DNA of 64,000 bases from Rhodospirillaceae bacterium SYSU D60007 (lineage in GTDB: Bacteria > Pseudomonadota > Alphaproteobacteria > Reyranellales > Reyranellaceae), in NCBI GenBank assembly GCA_003574685.1, contig QOCQ01000015.1, positions 62,001 through 126,000 on the forward strand. Reading direction: 5' to 3'. The first letter of the stretch is position 1, and the number at the start of each line of letters is the position of its first letter. Positions 23,089 through 24,219 of this stretch are shown in pieces. Made by a program: the position numbers and the translations under genes. The notes below the pieces were generated by a model. It saw nothing but the letters and a program-made list of their open reading frames with translations, had not been told where the DNA came from and ran no database searches.

Positions 23089-23121
23089 TCGCATTCGACG
23101 ACATTGATCGGAGGTCGGCCC

Positions 23122-24219
23122 ATGACCCCCCGGCAGGCAATCAGCCGCGCGCGGCGCACGGCGTTTCTGGCGGCACTGGAGAAGAGCCTTTCCATCACCG
23201 GCGCCGCTGCGGCGGCGGGCGTCAACCGCACGCTCCTCTACAAGTGGCGCGCCCGGTTGCCGGCCTTTGCCGCCGCCTGGGATGACGCGGTCATGACGGC
23301 CATCGACCTGCTGGAGGACGAAGCGCTGCGCCGGGCGGTGCACGGCGTCGAGCGGCCGGTGTTCTATCGCGGCAAGCAGGTCGGCAGCGTCACCACGTAC
23401 AACGACCGCCTGCTGATGCTGCTGTTGCAGCGGCGCAGCCCCCGGCCGCAACACATCAACCGGCCGGTGCCGTTGCGGCCAGCGGACAAGCGCGAATCTG
23501 TCTCCCTGTCCGCCCCAGGGCACCTGACTCAAAACAACCTTCCCCCGGAGGGGGAAGGTGCCCGAAGGGCGGAAGGGGGATGTCTCCACCCGCTCGGAGT
23601 CTCGCCTTTTACACCGTGCTTGTTGAGGCATCCCCCTTCCGGCGCTGGCGCGCCACCTTCCCCCTCCGGGGGAAGGCCTGTGTCCAGCGGAGGAGACGAC
23701 AGGGTGAGCTCAGAGCCGCGCGAATCTGTCTCCTTCTGTCTCCCCGCCCCGGATCGCCAGACATCCCGCGCTGCGGCCGGAACAACGGCGTTCCAGGGCC
23801 GCGTGAATCTGTCTCCTTCTGCCTCCCTGTCCCCGGCTGTCGTTCCGGGTGCAGCGCGGAATCTTTTCGGCCCTCGCGGCGGCGGTGTTTCAGACCCGCG
23901 CGAATCTGTCTCCTTCTGTCTCTCCGTCACCGATTGCCAGGTATCCCGCGCTGCAATCGAAGCAGCCGCGTTCCGTGACCGCGCGAATCTGTCTCCCTCC
24001 GTCTCCCAGGGCATATGGCCCAGTCACGGTGTTTTCGTCGTCCTGAGCGAAGCGAAGGACCTTGCGGTGGTTCGGCCAAGGACTGGCAGCATCGGTGAGT
24101 CACCGCCACCATCGTTCACGGATCGGACGACCGCGGGGTCCTTCGCTTCGCTCAGGACGACGGCAAAGAGTGTGAATCTGTCTCCTTTTGTCTCTCCGAC
24201 TGCCGCAGCACCGGGATAG
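23122..24219 (+). CDS. Terminase-small-subunit-like HTH protein with repeat-derived tail
   Basis: 365 aa from ATG 23122 (CGGAGG upstream). Residues 1-110 hold a helix-turn-helix, SITGAAAAAGVNRTLLYKWR, then RPVFYRGKQVGSVTTYNDRL and LLMLLLQRRSP. This resembles the C-terminal part of phage terminase small subunits (PVFY-G-VG---YD-RLLMFLL). No terminase large subunit or phage gene is nearby. From about residue 124 the frame passes through palindromic repeat family B and six GAATCTGTCTCC repeats, giving RESVSFCL- and VNLSPS-type peptides with no recognisable fold. The true protein may be only the first 120 residues with readthrough into repeats, or the tail may be real. A possible domesticated phage or transposon DNA-binding protein. 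Confidence 0.6.
   Translation: MTPRQAISRARRTAFLAALEKSLSITGAAAAAGVNRTLLYKWRARLPAFAAAWDDAVMTAIDLLEDEALRRAVHGVERPVFYRGKQVGSVTTYNDRLLMLLLQRRSPRPQHINRPVPLRPADKRESVSLSAPGHLTQNNLPPEGEGARRAEGGCLHPLGVSPFTPCLLRHPPSGAGAPPSPSGGRPVSSGGDDRVSSEPRESVSFCLPAPDRQTSRAAAGTTAFQGRVNLSPSASLSPAVVPGAARNLFGPRGGGVSDPRESVSFCLSVTDCQVSRAAIEAAAFRDRANLSPSVSQGIWPSHGVFVVLSEAKDLAVVRPRTGSIGESPPPSFTDRTTAGSFASLRTTAKSVNLSPFVSPTAAAPG
23538..23676. repeat. Dispersed palindromic repeat pair, family B, copy 2
   Basis: Same two-unit inverted arrangement as at 8395-8514: left unit with CCCGAAGGGC, right unit with GGCGCTGGCGCGCC, here separated by a longer middle (about 55 nt). It lies inside the reading frame of the terminase-like gene between the first and second GAATCTGTCTCC cores. 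Confidence 0.87.
24037..24161. repeat. Perfect 25-bp inverted repeat (family D)
   Basis: The arms at 24037-24061 and 24137-24161 are exact complements, core CCTGAGCGAAGCGAAGGAC, enclosing 75 nt. The core resembles the widely dispersed TCCTTCGCTTCGCTCAGGA palindromes of many bacterial genomes. A diverged relative (CATTCCGAGCGCAGCGCGGG) is nested in the repeat at 52497-52772. Confidence 0.8.

Follow-up and report, generated by a model that had tools for sequence, protein, structure and literature searches.

Phage pac sites can carry short direct repeats that lie within the gene of a terminase small subunit (TerS), a protein with an HTH domain, or beside it. In the parts of the reports that concern these sites, pac of P1 occupies 161 bp within pacA and has seven hexamers (PMC10028697), and pac of SPP1 has direct repeats that extend over promoters and the beginning of gene 1, which encodes TerS (PMC4737164); the HTH of TerS from SF6, a Bacillus phage related to SPP1, is described there as having little sequence preference (PMC4737164). 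RAYT-REP/BIME systems join a gene family to a copy of a repeat dispersed between genes, and insertion sequences (IS) using REPs as targets are known from what is said of them in PMC2817692. Interspersed intergenic direct repeats are also represented by the staphylococcal STAR elements, for which the relevant text of PMC3532100 mentions no linked DNA-binding gene family. The locus analyzed here shares with the phage systems the TerS-family HTH protein and the repeats in or beside its gene, but its gene exists in many chromosomal copies that have neither TerL nor phage genes beside them, and its sites lie at dozens of loci with a uniform 10-bp spacing and with words that differ by clade. With RAYT-REP/BIME it shares a gene family adjoining a copy of a between-gene dispersed repeat, as well as the presence of IS near the repeats, whereas a tyrosine transposase is missing and the repeats are direct rather than palindromic, without inverted flanking on two sides. 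The repeated unit also differs from that of STAR.

The window, i.e. the whole stretch of 64,000 nt that was analyzed, is part of contig C7 in a genome of 5.34 Mb assembled in 58 contigs. An ORF check of the window gave an open frame on the + strand, starting at 23104 or 23122 and ending at 24219 (Table 1). The first ~120 residues had been said in an earlier note on this DNA to resemble a phage terminase small subunit, and this was borne out: residues 2-107 match phrog_4044, a terminase small subunit family, with an E value of 1.7e-29. Pfam matches of the protein were limited to weak HTH and TerS models, below the cut-off, plus two unrelated ones, and Y1_Tnp (PF01797) was absent from them. With a profile made from 82 relatives, Sf6 TerS chains were found in the PDB at an E value of 0.004. 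The AlphaFold model of the protein (pLDDT 90) also had Sf6 TerS as its best PDB match, which Foldseek placed first (E 0.36, probability 0.96), and its comparison with 3hef gave a Z of 7.5 over 70 residues, the first non-TerS row being at 4.9; such scores are modest for a fold match, and by the tool's own warning a Z below 8 can reflect a common arrangement. By sequence and, at such modest scores, by fold, the protein is of the TerS HTH type. The gene has no phage neighbours, and neither it nor the other close copies described below had a TerL partner downstream in the fetched loci. The ten proteins around the gene, examined by a Pfam scan, include parts of a branched-chain ABC transporter, AHSA1, ArsR, a luciferase-like monooxygenase and similar ones; all are metabolic or regulatory and none is a phage protein, in agreement with the earlier statement that phage genes are missing nearby.

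Table 1. Positions of the features at the locus, numbered from the first nucleotide of the window
Feature	Start	End	Strand	Basis or remarks
Promoter-like block TTGCTT-16 bp-TATACA, upstream of the gene	23057	23084	+	Read from sequence
TerS-like HTH protein gene, probable coding part	23122	23500	+	HTH domain 23134-23454; phrog_4044, codon score, AlphaFold model
Open continuation of the frame across the array, probably not part of the gene	23482	24216	+	Codon score -0.25 per codon
Core 1, degenerate second unit	23494	23505	+	Exact-site search, repeat analysis
Palindromic repeat CCTTCCCCC..GGGGGAAGG within the array	23538	23677	.	Arms 23538-23560/23654-23676, 100% complementary
Core 2, exact CTGTCTC pair, 10-bp spacing	23722	23743	+	Exact-site search, repeat analysis
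Core 3, second unit CTGCCTC	23805	23826	+	Exact-site search, repeat analysis
Core 4, exact pair, 10-bp spacing; core 2 + 180 nt	23902	23923	+	Exact-site search, repeat analysis
Core 5, second unit CCGTCTC; core 3 + 180 nt	23985	24006	+	Exact-site search, repeat analysis
Second palindrome, GTCGTCCTGAGCGAAGCGAAGGACC type, inverted GTCCTTCGCTTCGCTCAGGAC-type pair, within the array	24036	24162	.	Arms 24036-24074/24124-24162, 39 nt, 90% complementary
Core 6, second unit TTGTCTC	24174	24195	+	Exact-site search, repeat analysis

The frame does carry six exact GAATCTGTCTCC cores, as first reported, and their number is above chance, since dinucleotide shuffles contained a mean of 0.29 matches at up to one mismatch and none of 100 reached six. 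Repeat analysis identified a 25-nt family with six copies, and the true unit turned out to be CTGTCTC (GAGACAG on the other strand) at 10-bp spacing, not the 12-mer alone. The duplication described as one of 180 bp kept its offset of 180 nt, but the copies themselves, 23710-23827 and 23890-24007, are 118 nt each with 81% identity. The palindromes noticed in the frame correspond to two real blocks. The 140-bp CCTTCCCCC..GGGGGAAGG palindrome is a separate dispersed repeat, with copies at many other paralogue loci; apparently it is very abundant in this genome.

The reading of the locus as a gene extended by its array stands insofar as the frame is open throughout, but not as regards a translated extension. 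According to a home-made codon model, the score was +0.29 per codon in the HTH part (23122-23481), and the negative value of the tail (23482-24216) is not gene-like; in that segment the actual frame was the best of the six by a small margin, all six being negative. In addition, the offsets of the cores from 23122 modulo 3, calculated by hand, are 0, 0, 2, 0, 2 and 2, which places them in two reading frames. Codon usage and mixed core frames together disfavour a translated tail, and the run-on of the frame is thus probably incidental in the window copy. In the relatives G063 and G070 a gene-bearing unit of ~0.9 kb terminates within the frame and the flanking DNA differs from copy to copy, which along with the codon scores of the tail suggests that the extended frame of the window is a by-product; its translation is therefore doubtful. 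In the tails of the paralogues C58, C28 and C1 translation of the sites seems plausible, since all sites of a copy share a single frame there (LSPTVSVP-like), with a conserved C-terminus after them in the case of C58 and C28.

A genome-wide search for the core in relation to homologues of the HTH gene had been proposed, with a random distribution of the core, or homologues that always end near residue 120 and have no repeats, as outcomes that would speak against a link. When the search was done, neither was found. The GAATCTGTCTCC core occurs 14 times in the genome (reversed control 0), and the paired site TGTCTCNNNCTGTCTC has 136 exact copies (reversed control 0) and 216 at up to one mismatch (control 1), so that the repeat is widely dispersed outside the gene. 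Besides the array of the window, 31 clusters among the matches listed were examined, mostly in contigs C1-C34 plus C41, C45 and C58; together with the window array and five more near IS ends, they make at least 37 array loci, the smallest of which are single pairs. In the 31 arrays among the matches listed, TGTCTC was counted 274 times on the array strand and twice on the other, and 140 of the 243 successive spacings were exactly 10 bp, with eight of 11 bp and none of 9 bp. According to a home-made gene caller, 23 arrays of this set of 31 lie clear of called genes, and most of the other eight only touch an edge; the arrays thus are, like STAR, interspersed, intergenic and made of directly repeated units. 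Their orientation relative to codirectional neighbour genes goes both ways in these 31, and no match near the Rfam gathering score was obtained in 12 loci, which makes a role at the transcript level, as an RNA element, less likely. The pattern had zero or one exact copies in each of 74 other genomes of the family, so the CTGTCTC array family was seen in this genome only; G075, the one genome from beyond the family that a search of the order contributed, had no matches. At L080:3827-3978 and L093:5024-5173 there are nearly perfect tandem 10-mers, AACCTGTCTC and CATCTGTCTC, whose copy number may vary among strains.

Homologues of the HTH gene in this genome number 14 by protein search, and 15 and 14 by two profiles. 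Eleven form one close group; three (L026-L028) are distant, and one of these, L027, is the TerS gene with a TerL. In the loci fetched for the 11 close copies, no TerL motif follows the gene; a contig end cuts one of these loci just past the HTH, leaving 10 with a readable tail. The association of genes and arrays was counted starting from the protein search and not from the site pattern: a paired site at up to one mismatch lies within 700 nt downstream in six of the 10 readable copies (the window copy, C16, C58, C8a, C28 and C1), so that the repeats stand in or next to a TerS-type gene, as in pac. This agrees with the claim that the repeats are both associated with the HTH gene family and dispersed. 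C13 and C8b have a downstream paired site at two mismatches, and the sites lie within the coding frame of their conserved tails; the tail of C4b has only two GAGACAG, 6 bp apart, and that of C33 has no site across 687 nt. In the upstream flanks, the best paired-site match had 4-5 mismatches in all 10 readable copies, and the rest of the window (62.9 kb) has no paired site at up to one mismatch and two at up to two. Neither 8-letter site word was present in the fetched flanks of the distant homologues L026-L028. Conversely, an HTH gene of the family was not seen beside at least 26 of the 31 arrays among the matches listed. The genes duplicate as units of ~0.9 kb: C16 and C33 share 939 bp at 97.6%, C4b and C8b 877 bp at 95.3%, and C4b and C13 909 bp at 89.3%, in all cases with unrelated flanks. 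Each unit starts at a promoter-like TTGA..TATAC block, and by-eye comparison of C4b, C8b, C13, C16 and C33 gave TTGAyTTyCATAAG..TATAC, similar to the block of the window. In addition, an IS-like element, of which only the ends are known, interrupts the assembly at 19 places; nine left ends and 10 right ones coincide with contig ends or lie close to them (L200-L218). Six left and seven right ends, 13 of the 19, are at most 90 nt from a CTGTCTC array and the remaining six are not, so the arrays behave as insertion hot spots.

The HTH family is present in 25 of 75 genomes of the taxonomic family, with 7-26 copies in each of 16 genomes of genus g4, 15 in that of the window, four in G071 and one in each of the other seven. 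Genus g4 is probably Reyranella; a close gene belongs to a Reyranella MAG (L059). The solo label was given to 82 of the 100 loci examined and the TerL-linked label to the other 18, although L026 and L028 are the same domain twice and some solo labels depend on contig ends. Among the relatives' solo genes, the 67 with a tail of at least 300 nt were considered (two shorter ones were dropped), and in 21 of them a word of the form NNNACA is found at least three times in the 350 nt past the HTH, compared with 1.4% of shuffles, none of 17 TerL-linked genes and two of 134 flank windows. Different recognition helices are followed by different words: GGCACA goes with helix SGLARRTVYNWRD, CGAACA with TGIGRNTVYELRK, GCGACA with the TPRTVQRWRA type, GGACAG with IGVSRNTLYRLRR and, in the genome of the window, GAGACA with the NRTLLYKW type. 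Fifteen of the 21 positive genes belong to two clades, the count in L140, L143 and L149 is due to a neighbouring GGCACA element, and six of the 12 solo clusters of relatives have no such word. One TerL cluster also beat its shuffles in a pooled word test, with an unrelated word, which indicates that this test is inflated by common descent; given that orthologues share sequence it is a weak test, and the single-sequence count was relied on instead. Phylogenetic dependence and the clades without a word are the main weaknesses of this comparison. The six Erythrobacteraceae loci L060-L065 have neither a TerL motif within 3 kb nor a repeated NNNACA word; their TerS-like gene encodes about 260-340 aa.

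With about even confidence, we read the window locus as an orphan chromosomal copy of a TerS-like HTH protein together with an array of its putative DNA site, which would be pac-like and dispersed genome-wide. The protein would most likely bind CTGTCTC (GAGACAG), and with sites 10 bp apart neighbouring subunits would face the same side of the helix. The gene-adjacent array looks like the pac site of a phage, from which it may derive; at present it probably serves autoregulation of the gene. The sites have also spread to dozens of other, mostly extragenic positions, at which the proteins would assemble into local nucleoprotein complexes. The little sequence preference attributed to the SF6 TerS HTH in that part of PMC4737164 counts against this explanation, as do the arrays seen without an HTH gene beside them, the tails of C33 and C4b, and the solo clusters of relatives that have no word. 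The suggestion of domestication, with the protein acting on the repeats, stays a good reading of the sequence data, in view of repeats that are at once associated with the gene family and dispersed.

A possible but rather unlikely alternative is that the arrays are an independent family of extragenic direct repeats, grown by slippage and spread by recombination or a mobile element, and that HTH genes and IS share with them harmless intergenic hot spots, so that the association would reflect location and not binding. The many arrays without an HTH neighbour, the perfect tandem 10-mers at C15 and C34, which resemble slippage products, the closeness of IS-like ends to arrays and the other dispersed palindromes sitting within the window array speak for it. 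Against it speak the location of the sites downstream of the HTH and not upstream, their position inside the coding frame of the tails of C13 and C8b, and the other words at the same place in relatives. That the arrays are working pac-like sites, at which an orphan TerS or the terminase of a prophage or GTA starts packaging of chromosomal DNA, is improbable: the relationship of the protein to TerS and the P1 and SPP1 pac repeats in or at the TerS gene point that way, as does a title cited in PMC10028697, according to which more E. coli DNA is packaged when the chromosome contains P1 pac sites, but TerL is missing downstream of the close copies in the fetched loci and the one TerS gene that has it, L027, lacks the site words in its flanks.

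The proposal of the earlier note that the gene is RAYT-like did not survive, and mobilization of the repeats by the protein itself, as in a RAYT-REP-like system, is most improbable. The gene does adjoin a copy of a dispersed repeat, and discrete units of ~0.9 kb have been duplicated into unrelated flanks; nevertheless, the protein has no Y1_Tnp match, its sites are direct repeats on the downstream side only instead of inverted palindromic REPs on both sides, and by eye the ends of two unit families showed neither inverted repeats nor target duplications. Neither do Y1_Tnp genes track the HTH family, being present in five of seven HTH-rich and two of four HTH-free genomes, and RAYT membership was rejected on these grounds.

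Returning to the orphan TerS-like protein and its putative sites, a broader extension, which we regard as unlikely, is that a captured phage packaging module became a chromosomal address system, in which NNNACA words particular to each clade would be read on one helix face and would have spread as pac-like arrays that organize the chromosome or mark DNA for capsid-borne transfer; in the Reyranella-like family such a system would have had at least two origins, with different words, in two genera. If the proteins do read the arrays, they would offer a natural series of HTH proteins and words (at least five clades with a word) useful for the study of DNA recognition by TerS. They would also stand for a type of dispersed repeat that is tied to a protein with no transposase in it, and might connect phage packaging signals with the organization of chromosomes. 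In the open-access literature we found nothing linking a terminase small subunit with extragenic repeats, which does not establish its absence from print.

A dispersed element with a clade word exists in the relatives as well. GGACANNNTTCNGGACA, taken from the GGACAG clade, was found at 60 places; 10 of the 11 HTH-rich genomes searched have it, at 1-12 places each, and none of four HTH-free ones does. Four of the 60 places are HTH tails themselves. Many of them mark RE1, a hairpin-rich element of ~300 bp (12 copies aligned; L224:20-330) that repeats the GGACAG word, and others share only a core. A BLAST search with RE1 matched 17 of 75 genomes; once two matches of 23 and 41 nt were set aside, the remaining 15 were all HTH-rich g4 genomes, out of 16, G020 having no RE1 and G055 a 57-nt core only. 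Possibly the HTH-rich genomes form a single clade and the co-occurrence represents one event, which makes it weaker than the numbers suggest. RE1 is dispersed and extragenic, with no credible Rfam match at the loci searched. GAACAATCYGAACA was found at nine places in four of 15 genomes, at least five of them at loci with an HTH gene. Finally, in the fetched loci the element repeating GGCACA adjoins four genes of the CGAACA clade and one remnant (L140, L143, L149, L172 and L245), L245 resembling a CGAACA-clade gene with its HTH part deleted.
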